DNA from: Desulfotomaculum nigrificans DSM 574
GTDB taxonomy: Bacteria > Bacillota > Desulfotomaculia > Desulfotomaculales > Desulfotomaculaceae
Length of the DNA: 64,000 nucleotides
Direction: 5' to 3'
Assembly: GCF_000189755.2 (NCBI RefSeq)
Contig: NZ_KI912183.1
Span: forward strand, 498,257-562,256
Below are positions 47,925 to 56,600 of this stretch, one piece after another. A model generated the notes under the pieces. It was given only the letters and a program-made list of their open reading frames with translations. It had not been told where the DNA came from and did not search any database. A program made the translations under genes and the position numbers. Numbering within the stretch: the first letter of the stretch is position 1; every line of letters begins with the position of its first letter.

Positions 47925-48159
47925 TAATCTAGTCCTTTAATAAAATGTACATTTGGGCCACATCAAAGCAGTTATTATAAAGTATTTAGAAATTGGGACT
48001 TAAGAACTATAGTAAATGTCACCTGGCTGATATTAATATTGTTAGTAATAAATTAAAATATTAAGATAAAGATTTTATACCTTAAATTTAAAGATTTAAA
48101 TGATATTATATAAATCTATTGCTGTATGAAAGATATTAAGGAAAGGAATGGGGTTTCTT

Positions 48160-48291
48160 ATGAGGAGAGTTTTTATAGCCCTTTTATCTGTAGCTATAGT
48201 GACCTTGGCCATGTGGATTGCACCTAATGTAACATTTAATGCTTCTGCCTTAATGGAAGCGGTAATAAAGAGTGGTAAGGGTCTGCTGTAA
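48160..48291 (+). CDS. 43-residue hydrophobic or exported peptide
   Basis: A short frame starting MRRVFIALLSVAIVTLAMWI, which is a basic end plus one hydrophobic segment as in a signal or anchor peptide, followed by a short polar tail ending KSGKGLL. AAGGAAAGG lies about 12 bases upstream, and a strong terminator (48326-48362) follows. No relatives known to me. Lies in an otherwise empty stretch of about 600 bases. Confidence 0.5.
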   Translation: MRRVFIALLSVAIVTLAMWIAPNVTFNASALMEAVIKSGKGLL

Positions 48292-48325
48292 TTACCTGGC
48301 ATAATCATACTGATATACCTATTTG

Positions 48326-48362
48326 AACGCTTAACCGGCATGGATGGTTAAGCGTTTTTTAT
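48326..48362 (+). terminator. Terminator
   Basis: An 11-bp stem AACGCTTAACC/GGTTAAGCGTT with an 8-base loop, followed by six Ts. It closes the short gene just upstream. Confidence 0.88.
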
Positions 48363-48532
48363 GTTAATTTCCCATTAGAGTAATTTTATTTCAGGCTTTT
48401 ATCTTTTATAATAGATAAGTGATGTTACAAAAAAACACCACTGACCGGTACATGTGATTATTTTTATGGGATAGGTTAAGAAACATAATGTCAGGTATAG
48501 AGATAAAACTTTCATATAAGGGGAAATGTTCT

Positions 48533-48901
48533 ATGCATAAAGATAACATTACTTGTATACAGAGAGCCAGGTTCTTTTTCTACTTTTACGAAAAAAAGGA
48601 ATGGTTACCCGGCGAGGAACCTCCATTGGATAACATTATTAAGGTCAAAAATGTAGAACCCCAAGCAGTCAGGAAGTTGGGCCAATTCTTATCCAACCGC
48701 TTGGAAAGAATCGCCACCATGATGGAAATTTTAACATCAGCCCATGATGATTGGGCCATTACCGGAAAAAAAGATATGATTCTAATGGAAACAGAGACAT
48801 TTGATTTTAATGATGCCCTTAAGATATTGAAGGATCACGGGTTTAATGATGACGAATTCATCTTAAAGGTTGAATACAATCGTAAATGGGGTATATTGTA
48901 A
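48533..48901 (+). CDS. Hypothetical soluble protein
   Basis: 122 residues starting MHKDNITCIQRARFFFYFYE, alpha/beta, with no membrane helix after the start. AAGGGGAAATG lies 8 bases before ATG 48533, while the longer frame from 48488 has no ribosome site. A TATAAT at 48407-48412 may be its -10. The terminator at 48903-48928 closes the unit. No family recognised. Confidence 0.6.
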   Translation: MHKDNITCIQRARFFFYFYEKKEWLPGEEPPLDNIIKVKNVEPQAVRKLGQFLSNRLERIATMMEILTSAHDDWAITGKKDMILMETETFDFNDALKILKDHGFNDDEFILKVEYNRKWGIL

Positions 48902-48902
48902 T

Positions 48903-48928
48903 GAAGCCTGGTTGTCAGGCTTCTTTTA
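48903..48928 (+). terminator. Terminator
   Basis: Stem GAAGCCTG/CAGGCTTC with loop GTTGT and a T run. It lies directly after the hypothetical gene. Confidence 0.8.
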
Positions 48929-49032
48929 TTTAAGGCCCAAAATGGTAAAATTTCATTATTTTGTAATAAACAGTATACAGTTAGTAGTAAATTACCTATA
49001 ATATGTTTAAAACCCTGTTGGAGGGATAATCA

Positions 49033-49683
49033 ATGGGCAGGGGTATCATGATTATTTTTCTCAGTTTCATGTTATTGGGCTGTAGTAATACCCGCATGAC
49101 TTCCTCAGAAGTGAGTGAAGAGATAAAACCCAAGAAATATGATACGCCGGCCATTGAGTTTCTCTATCCCGCCAATTTATTTCCTAAACCGTCGGCCAAC
49201 GGTAATGTTATATTCTGTGCCACCAGTATCGACCCGGATGAGAATATTAATAACCTTACCTATAATGAGTTAAGGGACTTAATTGTTATCAATGTGGTGC
49301 AAAAGCATGCCAACAGGCCAATTAATTCAGAGGAACTTAGAAAGATAGGCATGGAGGATATTAAAGAGTTAGGGCGGGTGGAATTTATTGATACCAAGAC
49401 TTTACTGCAAGATAATATCCCGGTGCTGGAGTTTATTGTTAGCAACCCGCAAACTTCCTTGCATATGAAGCAATACTTTCATGCTAATGAAGGGGAAGAA
49501 TATGTTATCAGCATAAGCACTTCCCGAGAAAACTGGCCATATATCAATTCAACCATTGCCATGTTTGAGAAAAGTATTAAGTTTAAAAGGTCGTCCCAAG
49601 TAAGCCAAACTAAAAATTCCCTGGGTTTGCCGAGACAATACCCAGGGAATTTTGTATTTTATTACTTAACAGCCATCCAGTAG
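49033..49683 (+). CDS. Putative lipoprotein
   Basis: 216 residues. A short basic start and hydrophobic segment lead to the lipobox MLLGCSNTRM (Cys about residue 17), so it should be lipid-anchored to the outer face of the membrane. The mature part is alpha/beta with no known domain (resembles PsbP/DUF-type stress proteins only in general build). GGAGGG lies 7 bases before ATG. The last 25 codons contain a terminator hairpin and overlap the convergent transporter gene by 22 bases, so the natural end may have been shorter. Confidence 0.68.
   Translation: MGRGIMIIFLSFMLLGCSNTRMTSSEVSEEIKPKKYDTPAIEFLYPANLFPKPSANGNVIFCATSIDPDENINNLTYNELRDLIVINVVQKHANRPINSEELRKIGMEDIKELGRVEFIDTKTLLQDNIPVLEFIVSNPQTSLHMKQYFHANEGEEYVISISTSRENWPYINSTIAMFEKSIKFKRSSQVSQTKNSLGLPRQYPGNFVFYYLTAIQ
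49613..49657. terminator. Bidirectional terminator inside the lipoprotein 3' end
   Basis: A perfect 14-bp stem (49613-49626 with 49640-49653), loop of 13 bases, followed by a T-rich tract on both strands. It lies inside the lipoprotein frame and just beyond the stop of the convergent transporter gene. Confidence 0.85.
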
Positions 49684-50996
49684 GAACCGAATACCAGCAC
49701 TGACAGAATATATCCCAGAGGAACGTTAACTAATACGCCGGTAGTAAAGGCAGCAAATGGTCTCCAACCTACTGCGGTAAGTTCTCTAAAGCGAGTTGTC
49801 AAACCAATAGCAAAGAAGCAGAATACGAAGGCCCAGGTCCTTAAAGTTTTCAGAGGAGCAATAACGCTCTTGGAAACTGCTTTAGCAGTGGCCGGATCTA
49901 CAGATGCCATTATAACGGTAACCAGAGCAGAAGCTATAAAGAAACCAATAACAAATTTAGGGAAGCGGTACCAGATTTCTTTGGCATCAGGTTTAGTACC
50001 ATCATCTCTTTTTTCCCACTTGGTAATGGAGATAAGAGCTAAGATGAAGCACCAGATACCAACAAACATATCACGACCTACAACCTTCATCAGGGTAAAG
50101 GTGGCAATGGCCTGCTCGTTAATAGCGGCAGCGGCGGCGATACCGGCGGCATCAGCAAACTCAGAGGTACCAATCCAGGCACCGGCAGGACCAGCAGGGA
50201 TACCAAAGATTTTAATAAAGATAGGTAAAGCATAGATCATTACGATAGCCCAAACAACTACCAGGGAAATGGCTACGGAAACATGATTCTTGTCAGCTTT
50301 AACTGCACCACCAATGGCGATGGATGCAGAAACACCACAGATGGAACCACCAGCTCCCAGTGTAGCTGCAAATCTCTTATCCAGACCAAACAATCTGGTA
50401 CCAGCGAAGTAAATAGTTAAGAAGGTAGTAACAGCAATTACAGTAGCTTGACCGAAGGCCAAGGGACCAGCTTGTACAATTAAGGTAAAGGGCAGAGTAG
50501 CACCCAGTAAAACAATACCTACTTTTACGTAAAATTCAGTTCTTAAAGCGGCTTCCATCCATTTAGGAATGGGCAGGGTATTACTTATAATCATTCCTAA
50601 ACCAAGAGCAACCAGAGGAGCTTCCAGGTTATACTTTTGCGCTACATCCCAAGCCCCAAAGATGGTTACCAGAACACTCATTACGAAAACGAAGGTAAAA
50701 CCAGGAATGAATTCGCTTAATTTATGACCCAAAATTTTAACAGCAATGGAGAAGAGAACTAAGAACACTGCAAAAAGTAATACATAGCCACTAATTTTGT
50801 CTGCAAAGTGGGCGGAAACTTGACTAAAGTGTGACCAGTTAGGAACACTAACGGCCATGGTTTTAATGGAGCTTCCAGATTTCCATAATAAAATAGCAGC
50901 GATTGTAAGACCGAGACCAAGCCATACGGCCCACCAGTCTTCCTTTTTCCAAAGGTCTGACCAACCACCGCTGGGGGTAGTGGCTTTACCAGCCAT
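49662..50996 (-). CDS. YeiH-family putative anion exporter (long form)
   Basis: 444 residues, about 10-11 membrane helices, family signature GAGGSICGVSASIAIGGAV. The family (PF03601, YeiH) is often named putative sulfate exporter, but transport of sulfate is not firmly shown. Compared with the second copy at 55470-56600 it has an N-terminal extension of about 70 residues with one extra helix pair. AAAGGAGG lies 5 bases before ATG. It points away from the sensor operon and shares a 579-bp intergenic region with it. Confidence 0.88.
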   Translation of the reverse strand: MAGKATTPSGGWSDLWKKEDWWAVWLGLGLTIAAILLWKSGSSIKTMAVSVPNWSHFSQVSAHFADKISGYVLLFAVFLVLFSIAVKILGHKLSEFIPGFTFVFVMSVLVTIFGAWDVAQKYNLEAPLVALGLGMIISNTLPIPKWMEAALRTEFYVKVGIVLLGATLPFTLIVQAGPLAFGQATVIAVTTFLTIYFAGTRLFGLDKRFAATLGAGGSICGVSASIAIGGAVKADKNHVSVAISLVVVWAIVMIYALPIFIKIFGIPAGPAGAWIGTSEFADAAGIAAAAAINEQAIATFTLMKVVGRDMFVGIWCFILALISITKWEKRDDGTKPDAKEIWYRFPKFVIGFFIASALVTVIMASVDPATAKAVSKSVIAPLKTLRTWAFVFCFFAIGLTTRFRELTAVGWRPFAAFTTGVLVNVPLGYILSVLVFGSYWMAVK

Positions 50997-51575
50997 GTCA
51001 ATTCCTCCTTTAGTTGAAAATTCTTTGTCAGCGCCGCATACAAACTGCCGGCGTTATTTATATGCAGCACCAGACAATCGCCTTTGGCATAATTTTCACG
51101 TTACCTTTAACTTTTACTTAAAGATAACGAATTGCCCATTTTGATTAAGAATTTTTAGCTTGAGAAATATTTAATTTTTAACAAATATCAAAAAGCCATT
51201 GATCAGCAAAATTTTTTATTTAATTGACAAATTTAATGCAATATAACTGACCGGTTAATTGTAATATGCTTGACAAACATTAAATTAACCCAAAGGTTGT
51301 TTTAACTTGCATGATAATCTGTTCACATAATCCTTAACTAAATCTTAATTTTTTAATGATACCTAGTCAACGTAACGGAAACACTATGAACGTTTTAGGT
51401 ATTCAAGTGAAATATTTTAACCAACACTGTGAACATTTTGTGTCACCTTGTTGGTTATCTTAAATCAGGACGTCTGGCATGATAAAATAGTTACTAGAGG
51501 AAGGAATCTATAAATGTCAAATTTTTGTTTTAAGTGAAAGTGATAAGATTCTGATATTCGAATGGTGGCGAAAAA
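50997..51575. other. 579-bp divergent regulatory region
   Basis: No gene seen. It separates the minus-strand YeiH gene from the plus-strand kinase. It contains two TTGACA boxes on the plus strand (about 51222 and 51273) without good -10 partners, and a pair of imperfect 17-base direct repeats at 51380-51396 and 51423-51439. The size and the repeats suggest a regulated promoter region. Confidence 0.6.
51380..51439 (+). repeat. Tandem operator-like direct repeats
   Basis: AACACTATGAACGTTTT (51380-51396) and AACACTGTGAACATTTT (51423-51439): 15 of 17 positions identical, with a start-to-start distance of 43 bases, about four helical turns. They lie about 140-195 bases ahead of the kinase gene. 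A binding-site pair for the NarL-type regulator of this locus is a fair guess. Confidence 0.5.
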
Positions 51576-53207
51576 ATGATCAGCAAAAACAAACTCAGGC
51601 TAATCTTGATATTACTAGGATTGGTTTTGTTATCGGCCTTATTATTACTTTTTGATTCCTACAATAGTGCCAGGAAGCTTAAAGAATTTGAACAATATTC
51701 TGAGCAAATGTCTGTATATAATAAATTGGCCGATGATATTTTCAATTTAACTGTTAAAGGGGAAGACTATATTTTACATCCTAATCCGCAAAACCTTGAT
51801 GAATTTAGGGAGCTTGGTGCTGCGGTTACCAATCATGAATTAGAATTGTTTAACACCTCAAAGGGCAGTAACAAACAACAGCTTAGTAATCTCATGGAAA
51901 CGACAAAAACCTTCCTTTCTTTCATAGAAAAAGAAGTGGTACCGGTTATTCAGTCCAGGCATTCCAATAACTTAGAATATATTTATTTACAACAAAGAAA
52001 CCAGGAATTCATCCAGAAACTTAGAACCGATGCTAATTTGCTGTCATTGGCTACGCAAAAAGAAGTTAATGAATATTTTCAAACCATTATTATAAAGAAA
52101 AGCTATAAAGCAGCCTTTTTGCTTGTGATCATGTTATTGGCCATGGCCTTATTGTTTCACGAAACATTAAAGTTAATTAAGAAATTATTAATTGAGTACA
52201 GTTACCTGGATAAACTGGCTAAAAGTAGCAAAAGTGCTGTAATCATGGTAGATAAATTCGGTAATTTAAAATACTTCAACAAGGCCGCCCAGGAGTTATT
52301 TAGCCTGGGGGAAGAAGTTCTAACAGGTAAAAATCTTAGTGACATACCGGTGCTTTATCCCCATCTACAAAATGTGACTGAGCCACTTTACGAAGTTATC
52401 ATGCATCAAAAGGAATTACTTAAAAATCCAGTTAACTATTTATTTGTCGGACAGAAATTACAACTTATGGTGGACTACATGCCGGTATTTTGGGACAATC
52501 GGTTGTTGGGTGCGCTACTGACAGCTAACAGGGTGGAAGCGCATAAGGATAAGTATATTTTGCTAGATACCTTGGAAACTGAAAGAAAAAGGATTTCTAT
52601 TGAAATTCATGACTGGATAGGCAGGTACATGTCCACCATTATCCACTCATTAGATTATATTTTGCGACAACATGATATCGTGCATGGGGAATTGAGGGAT
52701 AACCTGTTAGCTTTACGAGCCCATTGCCAGAACTCCGCCATTGAGATGAGAGGAATCATGAATGATATTCACCCATATTTAATTGACAAAGTGGGACTCA
52801 TCTCGGCCCTGGAATCCTATATTGTTACCTTCGAGAAACTTAATAATATCAAGGTTTATATTTTTTACCAAGACAGATCCTTAAAAATTAAAAAGAAGGA
52901 TGAAATTATCTTATACCGGATTATTCAAGAGGCCCTGAGTAATGTAGTAAAACATTCTAAAGCTACCGAGGTGGATGTTCACTTTACGGTTTCCCATGAT
53001 ATCTTAAGGATAGAAATAGAAGATAACGGGGGCTTTAGTGGTGAATTTGCCGCCGGTAAAGGATTATGGGGCATGAAAGAACGAGCCAAGTTAATTGGCG
53101 GGGACATTAGTATTGATCAAAGTGAGTCAGGCTTTTGCGTTATTATTAACGTTCCTTTAATATCTGGGGGTCAGCCTAATGGAAAAGATAAAAGTGATGT
53201 TAATTGA
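51576..53207 (+). CDS. NarX/LiaS-type sensor histidine kinase with PAS domain
   Basis: 543 residues: membrane helix 1 (about 7-26), outer helical sensor (27-175), helix 2 (about 178-197), PAS domain (about 213-320), HisKA_3 dimerisation domain with phospho-His 345 in ISIEIHDWIGR, and a HATPase_c domain ending near GKGLWGMKERAKLIGGDISI. This is the NarL-type kinase class. It overlaps the next gene by 29 bases. The outer domain is a 4-helix-bundle-like part with no recognised ligand motif. Confidence 0.9.
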   Translation: MISKNKLRLILILLGLVLLSALLLLFDSYNSARKLKEFEQYSEQMSVYNKLADDIFNLTVKGEDYILHPNPQNLDEFRELGAAVTNHELELFNTSKGSNKQQLSNLMETTKTFLSFIEKEVVPVIQSRHSNNLEYIYLQQRNQEFIQKLRTDANLLSLATQKEVNEYFQTIIIKKSYKAAFLLVIMLLAMALLFHETLKLIKKLLIEYSYLDKLAKSSKSAVIMVDKFGNLKYFNKAAQELFSLGEEVLTGKNLSDIPVLYPHLQNVTEPLYEVIMHQKELLKNPVNYLFVGQKLQLMVDYMPVFWDNRLLGALLTANRVEAHKDKYILLDTLETERKRISIEIHDWIGRYMSTIIHSLDYILRQHDIVHGELRDNLLALRAHCQNSAIEMRGIMNDIHPYLIDKVGLISALESYIVTFEKLNNIKVYIFYQDRSLKIKKKDEIILYRIIQEALSNVVKHSKATEVDVHFTVSHDILRIEIEDNGGFSGEFAAGKGLWGMKERAKLIGGDISIDQSESGFCVIINVPLISGGQPNGKDKSDVN

Positions 53208-53793
53208 AGATCATAATGTATTTCGTGAGGGTTTAAAAAAACTTATTGACCTGGAAGACAACATGTCCGTGGTGGCTGAAGCCGGATCTTGCCAGGAAGC
53301 ATTGGAAAATGTTAATCAGGACATTGATGTAATTCTTTTGGACATTGGTTTACCTGACGGTGATGGTCTAGAGTTGTGTGAAAAAATCAGGGCTAAATAT
53401 CCCAAGATAAAACACGTTGCCCTCACTACCTATGATGATGCCATATTTATTAAAAAGGCCATGGAATGTGGGGTGAAAGGCTTTGTTCCCAAATATGCCT
53501 TTTTTGATGAAATTAGAGCAGCCATATTGATGACCAGTAAAGGTGGAACCTATTTATACCCTGGATTAAATACAGATATATTGTTTAATCTTTCCGACCC
53601 GGGGTTATCCGATATAGAGTTAAAAATTTTGCAAATGCTGGCCAGTGGTCAAAGTCAAAAGGATATTGCCACTAATTTATTTATTAGCCTCTCCACCTTT
53701 CGGCGCAGACTTAAGACTATTTTTTCCAAACTGAAGGTTAATACTGTGGAGGAAGCCTTAACTGTTGCCACTAAAAAGGGACTGATTAAATAA
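53179..53793 (+). CDS. NarL/FixJ-family response regulator
   Basis: 204 residues. The receiver has MLIEDHNVFREG, the phospho-Asp in DVILLDIGLPDGDG, and Lys in FVPKYAFFDE. The C-terminal LuxR-type HTH is LSDIELKILQMLASGQSQKD followed by STFRRRLKTIFSKL. It starts inside the kinase gene (29-base overlap) and ends 2 bases before the PAS sensor gene. It likely controls the flanking YeiH genes, perhaps through the direct repeats in the 51.4 kb region. Confidence 0.93.
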   Translation: MEKIKVMLIEDHNVFREGLKKLIDLEDNMSVVAEAGSCQEALENVNQDIDVILLDIGLPDGDGLELCEKIRAKYPKIKHVALTTYDDAIFIKKAMECGVKGFVPKYAFFDEIRAAILMTSKGGTYLYPGLNTDILFNLSDPGLSDIELKILQMLASGQSQKDIATNLFISLSTFRRRLKTIFSKLKVNTVEEALTVATKKGLIK

Positions 53794-53795
53794 CT

Positions 53796-55274
53796 ATGAA
53801 AGTATTGCTTGAAGCTAAAAACATCCTTTCAATGGTAGTCATCGTATTTTTGCTAAGCATTATCACTTTATTTGGGATTATGCAGTTCAGGTTTTTTACC
53901 GGGATATTAGACAGCTATGAGAACGATATGCAACAGGCGGTCGTTAACAAAACAACGTTTTTCTTAAACGATTTAACTGCTATATCAGAAAACGCTGCCA
54001 AACGAATAGTGTCCCAGGAACAGGAAACCAGGTCAATTCTAAAGCTCATCTCAACCTACGATTACCGTATTGTCAATGTTTATTTACTGGATGCTAAAGG
54101 AAACCTGCAGGATGCCTTGGTTAATAAACCTGAAGACAGCGAAAATATCTCCTGGTTGGGCCGACCCACTCAATTATCAGTTTCCCCGGTACATGTAGAT
54201 CAGGCTACTCATCTTAACATTGTAAGCTTTGGCCGACCGTTGCATTATAAAGATGGCAGTCAAGGTTGGTTAGTTCTGGATTTTAGTATTGACCAGTTTC
54301 AAAAGGAAATAATGCAGGAATTTGCCGGCGAAAACTTTAAAGTTGCACTTTTTGATAACCAAGGTCACCCGATAATTTGGCCCTTTGATCAGACTAAATT
54401 AGCTGTTTTTCGCTCCCAACCAACGAAGTTTTATGATCACCAGAGCCAGTTTGATGTGAGGAAAAATGAAGTTGGAACTGCTAAATGGCAACTATACTTT
54501 TTTCTAAAGGAAACCAATTTTGAAACTTTCCGGGCTATTGCAGTTATTATTTTAGTATTTGTGTTATATATTTGCCTTTACCAAATGCTGGTGGAATTCT
54601 GGGGGGTCAACAGCGCCAAAACCTACTTTGAAAACATAGACTTTGCCATATTTAATCAAATTAACGAAGGAGTAATATTGTCTAATAATGCCGGCCGTAT
54701 TATTTTTGCCAATAAAGCAGCCCAGGAGATTTTTGTCGAACGGAAAAATAGTTTAAGAAATGTAAAGCTAAAAGAAATTTTGGGACACATTGATGAGAAC
54801 CAGCACCTGATTGATAAGTCTAAAACATTTACACTTAAAGTATCAGATCGATTATTGGAGGCTATTCATTCACCGATTATTAAACAACGTAAGAAACTAG
54901 GATCACTTACTGTGATCAGGCCCAATGTAAAAGAAGAGAAAACCTACAGAAATGTGCTGAGCCGGCTAGTGGAGACCATTCCGGAAGGGGTGGTTTATGT
55001 TGACAAAAACTTTGAGGTAGTGGCGGCCAATTTAATGGCTAAACTTTATCTGGGTAATATAGAGACGGGGACTAATATTTACAGTGTTGACCCGGGTCTG
55101 GCGGCCGAAATCAACAATCATATCGGATCTCGATCGGTGATTAGAACAGGATTATCCAACTATGATCTTCCCTGTGAGATAGCACCAGTATACGATGATG
55201 ACGGGGTGTATGCCGGTACCCTGGTAGTATTGCTAACTGCTTTGCATGATAATAATCCAGCCTGCCCAAGCTAA
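53796..55274 (+). CDS. Membrane sensor with outer Cache-like domain and two PAS domains, no kinase
   Basis: 492 residues: membrane helix 1 (about 10-32), a large outer domain (33-244) with dCache-like order (IVNVYLLDAKGNLQDALV, then LHYKDGSQGWLVLDFS and ALFDNQGHPI), and helix 2 (247-267). Two cytoplasmic PAS domains follow (about 283-375 and 388-485). There the protein ends: no kinase, GGDEF, HTH or methyl-accepting domain. It must signal by contacting a partner, probably the kinase of the same operon. It starts 2 bases after the regulator gene. Confidence 0.85.
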   Translation: MKVLLEAKNILSMVVIVFLLSIITLFGIMQFRFFTGILDSYENDMQQAVVNKTTFFLNDLTAISENAAKRIVSQEQETRSILKLISTYDYRIVNVYLLDAKGNLQDALVNKPEDSENISWLGRPTQLSVSPVHVDQATHLNIVSFGRPLHYKDGSQGWLVLDFSIDQFQKEIMQEFAGENFKVALFDNQGHPIIWPFDQTKLAVFRSQPTKFYDHQSQFDVRKNEVGTAKWQLYFFLKETNFETFRAIAVIILVFVLYICLYQMLVEFWGVNSAKTYFENIDFAIFNQINEGVILSNNAGRIIFANKAAQEIFVERKNSLRNVKLKEILGHIDENQHLIDKSKTFTLKVSDRLLEAIHSPIIKQRKKLGSLTVIRPNVKEEKTYRNVLSRLVETIPEGVVYVDKNFEVVAANLMAKLYLGNIETGTNIYSVDPGLAAEINNHIGSRSVIRTGLSNYDLPCEIAPVYDDDGVYAGTLVVLLTALHDNNPACPS

Positions 55275-55296
55275 AAAGGGCAGGCTTATTGTTTGT
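55259..55296 (+). terminator. Terminator over the PAS-sensor stop
   Basis: A perfect 9-bp stem AGCCTGCCC/GGGCAGGCT with a 10-base loop that contains the TAA stop codon, followed by a T-rich tract. Confidence 0.8.
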
Positions 55297-55312
55297 TTAA
55301 AGGGTATAAAAG

Positions 55313-55453
55313 TTAAGACATGACTAAAATGATGATTAATATTAAAAGGGTAAGGGATAAGGCCACATAGTCCTCGATTCTTTCTGTGGCAAACAGAGAA
55401 ATGAAATGGTAGTCGTTGTTGTCTTTGTCATTATTTATTGGTTCTTGGTTCAT
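55313..55453 (-). CDS. 46-residue single-pass membrane protein behind the second YeiH gene
   Basis: Encodes MNQEPINNDKDNNDYHFISL, a linker (FATERIEDYVAL) and one membrane helix of about 16 hydrophobic residues (SLTLLILIIILVM). GAGGTG lies 5 bases before the ATG. It begins 16 bases after the stop of the YeiH gene on the same strand, so the two form one transcript. Small helper subunits are known in other transporter families. A role as partner of YeiH is inferred from position only. Confidence 0.65.
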   Translation of the reverse strand: MNQEPINNDKDNNDYHFISLFATERIEDYVALSLTLLILIIILVMS

Positions 55454-55469
55454 GGGAACACCTCATCTG

Positions 55470-56600
55470 CTAGGGCTGTTTGTCTACGAAAAGAAGCACG
55501 ATGATTAAAACCAGTAATGCTTTTAAACAGGCAGCTGCTGAGCCGACAATTAAGGGCTTGCCCCCGGCCTTTCGCAGTTCATTAAAAGAAATTTGCATAC
55601 CCAGGCCGGCCAAACCAATGGCAAATAACCAGCTATAAAGTTTGTGGATAAGTCGTAACTCATGCGAGGGCGGTGAAGTAGAACCTAGAAAGCCAAAGGA
55701 AGTGAGGACCACAACTACCAGAAAACCCAGAACAAAAACTGGGAATCTGCTCCATAGTCCGGTATTAATATTAACGTCATCTTCTGGTAATTGAGCGGTA
55801 CGGCTGCTATACACGGCCAAGGCCAAAACCACAAAGGGTAAAAAAATGACTCTGGTTAAATTGTAAATCTCACCGGTTTTTAAACTTTCCGAGACATGGT
55901 TGGTACTACCTGGGTCAAAGGCTAAACAAACAGCCAGTACCTGGCCGGAATTAACAATGCCAGTACCGGCCCAGACACCGAACTGGTGCGGGCTTAAATC
56001 CAACAGAGTGCCTAATAAAGGAAAAATAAATAAACTAACCAATCCAAAGGAAAGAATGGTGGCAATAGAATAAACCACATCAGTAGTTTTGGCCCGGACA
56101 GCAGGGGCAGCGGCCACAATGGCGGAAACACCGCAGATGCTTGTGCCGGCTGATAACACGGCGGCTGCCTCGGGGTTCATGCCTGTTTTACGGCCCAGCC
56201 ATAACGTAAATAAAACGGTAAAAACTATAAAGGTTAAAACCAAAATTATGGCCGTGCCACCTAAGCGGGCTACATCCACCACGCTATATAAGGAACCTAA
56301 CAGGATAACACCCATCTTCATGAATAAGCTAGAAGTTCTGACTCCGGGGGCAGCCCACCTGGGAATGGTCAAAATATTGCGCATAAGCATACCGATAATT
56401 ATTGATAAAAGTATGTAATTTAAGTGCAGAATATCAATTAAAAGTTTCTTAGAATAAGGATTGGCAGCAAAATAAGTTTCCAGACCCCGCCACTGATAGA
56501 AGCCAAAATCCTCACCGCCTTTTGCAAAAAAGGCAATGGCAAACATTAGGAAGATCCCTGGTATAGTCCGGATAACTAAGGGGACTTTGTTCAAAGACAT
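55470..56600 (-). CDS. YeiH-family putative anion exporter (short form)
   Basis: 376 residues with about 10 membrane helices and the family signature LSAGTSICGVSAIVAAAPAV. Lacks the N-terminal extension of the copy at 49662-50996. GGGAGG lies 4 bases before the ATG, and an extended -10 (TGCTATAAT on the minus strand, 56634-56642) is upstream. Both YeiH genes are on the minus strand and flank the sensor operon. Substrate not established; sulfate or another anion is the usual guess. Confidence 0.87.
   Translation of the reverse strand: MSLNKVPLVIRTIPGIFLMFAIAFFAKGGEDFGFYQWRGLETYFAANPYSKKLLIDILHLNYILLSIIIGMLMRNILTIPRWAAPGVRTSSLFMKMGVILLGSLYSVVDVARLGGTAIILVLTFIVFTVLFTLWLGRKTGMNPEAAAVLSAGTSICGVSAIVAAAPAVRAKTTDVVYSIATILSFGLVSLFIFPLLGTLLDLSPHQFGVWAGTGIVNSGQVLAVCLAFDPGSTNHVSESLKTGEIYNLTRVIFLPFVVLALAVYSSRTAQLPEDDVNINTGLWSRFPVFVLGFLVVVVLTSFGFLGSTSPPSHELRLIHKLYSWLFAIGLAGLGMQISFNELRKAGGKPLIVGSAAACLKALLVLIIVLLFVDKQP

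Follow-up and report, generated by a model that had tools for sequence, protein, structure and literature searches.

The chromosomal region considered here, from Desulfotomaculum nigrificans DSM 574, carries a candidate sensor–transporter module in which two paralogous membrane transporters flank a two-component system and an additional membrane sensor. The window, meaning the whole 64,000-nucleotide stretch that was analysed, spans positions 498257–562256 of a 3.05-Mb single-contig genome (G000:C1), and all coordinates given for its features are window positions. The first transporter, PSE1, is a protein of 444 residues encoded on the minus strand (49662–50996). Divergent from it, on the plus strand, run the genes for a sensor histidine kinase (51576–53207, 543 residues), a NarL/FixJ-type response regulator (53179–53793, 204 residues) and a membrane Cache-PAS-PAS protein (53796–55274, 492 residues). 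Beyond these, on the minus strand, lies the second transporter, PSE2 (55470–56600, 376 residues), which is followed by a tiny membrane protein of 46 residues (55313–55453). The preliminary description of this DNA, made from the sequence alone, had given the coordinates, strands and lengths of these six open reading frames (ORFs) exactly. It overlooked two further features: an inverted repeat, TGAACATTTTGTGTCA, at 51430–51445 between the kinase and PSE1 genes, to which no strand is assigned, and a plus-strand gene at 48488–48901 (h137), coding for a protein of unknown function which is linked to PSE1 in the neighbourhood maps of other genomes and forms a peripheral part of the locus. Neither an Rfam match at gathering score nor a transfer RNA was found in the window, and promoter and terminator scans gave match numbers no higher than chance.

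The kinase consists of an N-terminal membrane region followed by PAS, HisKA_3 and HATPase_c domains, and the regulator of Response_reg and GerE domains (Pfam and NCBIfam). Regular-expression searches located the phospho-acceptor box in 36 of 37 kinase homologues, the N-box in 32 and the G-box in 31, and the aspartate motif in 32 of 33 regulator homologues. The two proteins belong to the class of HisKA_3–HATPase kinases and receiver–GerE regulators with phosphorylation sites. This is the extent of their likeness to the NarX–NarL nitrate system, whose names they were first given: the domains were all found, but the scores against the NarX and NarL models (72.7 and 89.3) fall far below the cut-offs of 578 and 250. 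The NCBIfam models nearest to the kinase are those of MctS and UhpB. Here too the cut-offs are missed, the kinase scoring 88.7 against 408 with the UhpB model and the regulator 99.7 against 258 with that of UhpA. In the 492-residue protein Pfam recognises two PAS_8 stretches and, at 30.4 bits and so below the cut-off of 45, dCache_1. Pfam found no output domain in it, as had been proposed, and the kinase H-box is absent from all 36 of its homologues (469–554 residues; regular expression). No sequence relative of this protein was found in the PDB at E ≤ 0.01. Both transporters are members of PF03601 (Cons_hypoth698, the putative sulfate exporter family), with 173.3 bits for PSE1 and 205.7 bits for PSE2 against a gathering score of 24.5. 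Their earlier designation as YeiH paralogues is correct as to the family and too narrow as to the subfamily, since they score 105.6 and 125.7 with TIGR00698, where the NCBIfam cut-off is 232.6.

The arrangement is conserved. In a sample of 113 genomes of the order, a homologue of the Cache-PAS-PAS protein was found in 39 at E ≤ 1e-10, 38 of the matches being strong and one weak (2.5e-13, G110). Genes in the loci fetched from these genomes were mapped with our own ORF script. At 36 of the 37 loci open to testing, a PF03601 gene runs divergently to that of the kinase, the sole exception being a fragmented draft (G002); the two loci left out have the kinase at a contig edge (G013) or are a fragment on a 3.4-kb contig (G110). 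The divergent transporter is exchangeable. Placed by tree, or by best match where loci were fetched later, it belongs to subfamily PSE1 in 14 loci, PSE3 in 13, PSE4 in three, PSE5 in four and PSE6 in one, with one unplaced protein (G112) which is 37% identical to PSE3 and sits on a long, unsure branch. The window itself carries PSE1 where seven of eight genus-mates carry PSE3, and G007 has PSE3 in the module together with an unlinked PSE1, to which the PSE1 of the window is 86% identical. At nine PSE3 loci a small membrane-anchored gene (SVY153) sits between kinase and transporter. PSE3 is accompanied by a universal stress protein (147 residues, Usp domain) and by this membrane-anchored protein of about 153 residues ending in SVY, without a Pfam match (L049:3949-6260 and equivalents).

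PSE2, by contrast with its exchangeable partner, is a constant companion of the sensor genes. It was called at 62% identity or more, matches of the related PSE4 lying at 56–57%. It is present in 37 of the 113 genomes, every one of which is PAS-positive (G110 by its weak match), and is missing from two of the 39 PAS-positive genomes (G034 and G052). None of the 74 PAS-negative genomes has it, with no match above 39%, although PF03601 proteins of other subfamilies occur in these genomes too. In 35 of the 39 PAS-positive genomes PSE2 lies within the same fetched stretch as the sensor genes; in G007 it is about 5 kb from the PAS gene and in G068 it is cut by the contig end. The presence of the PAS gene is patchy inside families (7/16, 4/8, 4/7 and 3/8 in f4, f5, f7 and f2), which makes it likely that the genes were lost or gained together more than once. 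When 398 genomes were drawn evenly from the phylum, PSE2 matches at 1e-60 were confined to this order. A scan of species genomes yielded 33 loci, 27 of them close (61–76% identity); Moorella stamsii and two records with odd labels are among them. At 24 of the 27, the genes for kinase, regulator and PAS protein are nearby (partly cut in L139); of the remaining three, two are cut by a contig start (L137, L142) and one stands alone, with the PAS gene on another contig (L125, from G064). These maps and the co-occurrence of PSE2 with the PAS gene rule out a chance neighbourhood and uphold the suggestion of a sensor–transporter unit; on the comparative evidence, the region is a module for signalling and transport that has been conserved among sulfate reducers of the Desulfotomaculales type. 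The Moorella stamsii genome (L126) and a metagenome-assembled genome labelled Actinomycetes (L135) hold the module together with dsrA, as does an unidentified bacterium whose contig is cut before the kinase (L137); either joint transfer or mislabelled bins would account for these.

A motif search in the kinase-upstream regions detected a 16-bp inverted repeat with two lineage forms, TGAACN6GTTCA and TGACACN4GTGTCA, of which the repeat in the window is a hybrid. Exact palindromes of either form are found in 19 of 39 kinase-upstream regions. The half-site pattern common to both forms occurs in 25 of these 39, which include close relatives; 200 dinucleotide shuffles gave 0.4 on average and never more than 3. 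The window site is the single exact match to TGAMMNNTTTNKKTCA in its genome, which proves nothing alone because the reversed control pattern also matches once. More telling is TGACACNTTTGTGTCA, with 12 occurrences in the 113 genomes, all within 10 module-positive genomes, and none for the reversed control. Eight of these lie in the gap between kinase and transporter, three beside a succinyl-CoA-ligase gene pair, and one (G046) upstream of an unlinked string comprising a 67-residue single-helix ORF, a 90-residue ORF and PSE5. Looser matches occur upstream of an unlinked PSE1 (G007) and an unlinked PSE4 (G003). Judged by its position, the repeat at 51430–51445 is the probable site of this response regulator. 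The evidence for a regulator site covers the divergent transporter gene (49662–50996) and not PSE2 with its tiny protein. Upstream regions of unlinked PSE5 genes in G000, G112 and G051 score under 5 with the repeat matrix and have no site, whilst among eight PF03601 upstream regions taken from module-negative genomes two reach scores of 14.7 and 15.5. A gene for TauE was considered as a target and rejected: one exact repeat lies about 520 bp from it in G005, and the match in G004 is inside a transposase-like ORF.

Neither Pfam nor NCBIfam yields a match to the 46-residue protein at E ≤ 0.1. Its gene is nonetheless real, as the preliminary description had it, because relatives occupy the position behind this transporter in further species. 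An ORF of 38–79 residues with one membrane helix and a motif close to ERxEDYxALSL (TERIEDYVALSL in the window) lies behind 38 of 39 PSE2 genes, starting between −4 and +236 bases from the PSE2 stop. PSE3, PSE4 and PSE5 have their own versions (15/16, 4/4 and 6/7, the last count leaving out L238, which is cut by the locus end), while equal criteria applied to 372 control genes detected a neighbour of this kind in only 13. No tiny neighbour with the motif was found for PSE1 (22 rows) or PSE6 (6 rows). A hidden Markov model (HMM) was built from 43 tiny proteins of the PSE2, PSE3 and PSE4 types and run against 1311 proteins of at least 100 residues from the fetched loci. The 13 top-ranking rows (11 genes; E < 0.1) are all PF03601 N-termini, aligned within residues 5–53 and bearing ED(W/Y). 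In 20 loci outside the training set, the four best rows among 153 proteins of this size (E < 0.1) are again PF03601 N-termini, one of them with a second, internal alignment. The bit scores are low (about 7–20), as expected for 20 residues, and common origin is likely rather than proven. In PSE1 the corresponding helix, beginning KEDWWAVWLGLG, occupies codons 18–38 (50883–50945, minus strand), where the model aligns in PSE1 relatives; its E19, D20 and W22 are invariant in the 16 PSE1 proteins aligned. The pattern (E/D)D(W/Y) is present in 22 of 24 listed N-termini from other families, one of the two exceptions being cut by a contig end; PSE5 combines an ED(W) N-terminus with a tiny protein encoded downstream.

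Thus the tiny protein is probably a single transmembrane helix which is fused to the long forms of PF03601, such as PSE1, and separately encoded beside the short forms, where it would be a split-off subunit of PSE2. This does not extend to the whole family. Beside 30 short PF03601 genes of other families the HMM, which would miss the PSE5 type, found nothing convincing, and only one of 29 testable loci has a downstream single-helix ORF, without the motif; the split subunit is therefore not universal. For some members of this poorly characterised transporter family, the comparison suggests a single-helix subunit that is either fused or encoded by a gene of roughly 30–80 residues. Such a gene is easily missed when separately encoded, and heterologous expression of the transporter may need it. 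Very short membrane proteins encoded beside a large membrane protein are familiar from KdpF and CydX. The present case is alike in setting a single-helix protein beside a large membrane protein, and differs in that a similar helix is also fused in long paralogues. In another family, PSE5 is encoded in tandem with a single-helix protein of 57–68 residues and another PF03601 transporter, of the long form (L273–L275), so paired PF03601 transporters also exist outside the module.

Neither transporter has a sequence relative in the PDB (E ≤ 1). The AF2 model of PSE2 has a pLDDT of 81, and its best structural neighbours are CitS (Z 15.0 over 271 residues, 4.5 Å) and NapA (Z 14.9), scores to be read in the knowledge that helical models in general often reach a best Z near 14 in the comparison used; Foldseek alone found no match for it at E ≤ 0.001. 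With the same caveat on Z, the model shares the fold of the CPA/AT elevator-type transporters, the clan of NapA and ASBT, to which CitS is related. PF03601 is assigned to Pfam clan CL0064 (PMC8562792). The structure model of PSE1 (pLDDT 46) is too poor for use. PSE2 is thus predicted to have the fold of an elevator-type secondary transporter, a fold that is silent on substrate.

Sulfite is a toxic intermediate that sulfate reducers produce inside the cell, and by what means they detect and control it is, to our knowledge, not settled. Several lines of evidence connect the module with this metabolism. dsrA is over its cut-off in 37 of 39 module-positive genomes and in 38 of 74 module-negative ones (Fisher p 9e-7, a value which ignores kinship); the genome of the window has a strong match. 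The two exceptions are incomplete genomes, G013 (72%) and G017 (80%), and one of them has a dsrA fragment. Three carriers outside the 113 (Moorella stamsii G496, G497, G498) are dsrA-positive; the other three of the six genomes added appear, judging from their contigs and the positions of the matches, to be G068, G013 and G017 again. Furthermore, in a genome from another family of the phylum (G114), a PSE1 77% identical to that of the window and a copy of h137 stand inside one same-strand string of sulfur genes. The order is Crp-type regulator, DASS symporter, AprA, AprB, Hdr-type A, C and B proteins, PSE1, h137, an RsbRD-like protein and DsrK, J, O, P and M, with about 1 kb lacking a convincing gene between the B-type protein and PSE1. 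AprA (654.5 against 557 bits), DsrK, DsrJ, DsrO, DsrP and DsrM exceed their cut-offs; AprB (99.7 against 135.65), DASS (155.1 against 198.6) and the Hdr models remain below, and the C-type protein was called from iron-sulfur domains only. In two genomes of one other genus, PF03601 genes are followed by a NarI-like and a DsrK-like gene (332–334 bits, below the cut-off of 400). Finally, a study in Salmonella calls yeiH the primary driver of sulfite resistance (PMC12880088). With carriers nearly all dsrA-positive and a PSE1 standing elsewhere in an apr-hdr-dsr string, the suggestion of a sulfur oxyanion made at the outset appears likely in its general form, whether the anion is exported or imported.

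Taking as given the conserved arrangement, co-occurrence and repeat, and the similarity between tiny protein and fused helix, we infer the following scheme, in which the whole is best explained as a sulfur-anion export module under sensor control (probability about 0.5). The kinase and the kinase-less Cache-PAS-PAS protein would form a membrane sensor, perhaps helped by PSE2. The sensor would respond to the state of some sulfur oxyanion, an excess of sulfite (or sulfate) in the vicinity of the respiratory pathway being the likeliest signal. Once phosphorylated, the regulator would bind the inverted repeat at 51430–51445 and activate the divergent elevator-type transporter, PSE1 here and another subfamily in relatives, and probably, through the same repeat, its own operon. 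The transporter so induced would expel surplus sulfite or a related anion. The 46-residue protein would give PSE2 the counterpart of the ED(W/Y) helix found at the N-terminus of long transporters such as PSE1, and PSE2 with this helix may be a second pump, a heteromeric partner or a transporter-derived sensor like UhpC. The module would then be a compact candidate for sulfite handling, for which both the regulator site and its target are predicted and whose kinase-less co-sensor is as yet unstudied.

The last of the roles named for PSE2 recalls the UhpABC–UhpT system, in which an HPK7-type kinase and a FixJ/NarL-type regulator work with two paralogous transporter-like proteins, one of them regulated. 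Kinase type, regulator type and transporter pair have their counterparts here; the Uhp proteins belong to the MFS whereas these belong to PF03601, and the Uhp system is not known to include a Cache-PAS protein. As the constant partner of the sensor genes PSE2 resembles a transporter homologue acting as sensor in the manner of UhpC, a likeness that is suggestive only. Carried further, PSE2 and its helix would be a transceptor which, with the Cache-PAS-PAS protein, reads the flux of the sulfur anion and gates the kinase, the exchangeable PF03601 proteins being the regulated pumps. This rests on the tie of PSE2 to the sensor genes (37/37 against 0/74), the lack of a repeat upstream of it (0/39) and the retention of its place while its partner was swapped among five subfamilies, and we regard it as conceivable, if doubtful. 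The YeiE–YeiH system of Salmonella is another related case: a PF03601 transporter is under a regulator answering a sulfur oxyanion, with yeiH divergent from the regulator gene (PMC12880088). That regulator is of the LysR type, however, where a two-component system and an extra membrane sensor are found here, and there is one transporter there against two here, the present pair being below the YeiH cut-off. Two-component control of transport is of a known kind; this gene make-up is new to us, and titles and abstract beginnings of the open-licence literature searched contained no account of the module or of a tiny YeiH partner.

A number of observations weigh against sulfur-anion export under this regulator. 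As for the repeat, TGAACNNTTTNGTTCA matches 20 times in the 113 genomes against 11 for its reversed control, ten of the 20 lying between kinase and transporter and eight of the other ten inside ORFs, and the degenerate pattern matches 39 times in nine genomes against 48 for the control. The looser patterns are less than twice as common as, or no commoner than, their controls, so single remote sites are weak evidence. Upstream of PSE2 the half-site pattern occurs in 0 of 39 regions, with a best matrix score of 13.8. dsrA is ruled out as a general target of the regulator: one of 30 upstream regions from 28 module-positive genomes scores above 20 (G003; next best 14.2), and none of ten from module-negative genomes does (best 12.9). 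As for the substrate, 38 of 75 dsrA-positive genomes lack the module, and in family f16, where no genome has the module, 24 of 25 are dsrA-negative, so that the dsrA link is partly phylogenetic. The Salmonella result has to be extended from one subfamily to another, as neither transporter reaches the YeiH cut-off. Moreover, PSE2 is near malate dehydrogenase (mdh) in all eight genus-mates and near sdhA/sdhB-type genes in seven. In G001, G003 and G008 (L157, L158, L175) the exact repeat lies between the gene for a dCache membrane protein, without output domain in the part read, and a divergent pair coding for a 191-residue protein of unknown family and a succinyl-CoA ligase. The mdh/sdh proximity and these sites point to C4 acids.

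They feed the main rival explanation, that the same module serves C4-dicarboxylates (succinate, fumarate, malate), the Cache-PAS protein sensing an organic acid and the PF03601 pair moving it. CitS, a citrate symporter, among the best structural neighbours of PSE2 and the proximity of the kinase to the MctS and UhpB models would suit this proposal. Yet Na+/H+ antiporters rank level with CitS among the structural matches, and the mdh/sdh linkage belongs to the genus-mates: no such match was found in the window, where miaB follows, nor in L071 of another family. The near-universal presence of dsrA in module-positive genomes and the position of PSE1 in the G114 string also argue against it, and we consider it unlikely. 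It is rather improbable that the PF03601 pair supplies respiration by importing sulfate or some other sulfur oxyanion, with the two-component system tuning uptake to supply. Import would share the sulfur linkage of the export reading (dsrA, the G114 string), and the swapping of the divergent transporter might be due to classes of differing affinity, but a DASS-type symporter already stands with PSE1 in that string, other candidate sulfate transporters are given for Desulfotomaculum ruminis, reducens, carboxydivorans and kuznetsovii in one report (PMC5840216), and the single studied relative is described as conferring sulfite resistance (PMC12880088). That the six genes are adjacent by accident and have no joint function is extremely improbable, the unusual left flank of the window and the lack of a repeat at PSE2 being set against the 36 of 37 loci, the five exchangeable subfamilies and the 37/37 co-occurrence.

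The G+C content of the window is 0.37–0.38 at 48001–54000 against 0.41–0.47 on both sides. Given this and the presence of PSE1 instead of the genus-typical PSE3, the part comprising PSE1 and h137, of which the copy adjoining PSE1 in G114 is 61% identical, may be a recent exchange. Elsewhere in the same genome a further PF03601 gene (G000:C1:2641873-2642777; L092) is split into two overlapping frames of 226 and 141 residues, the result of a frameshift or a sequencing error.

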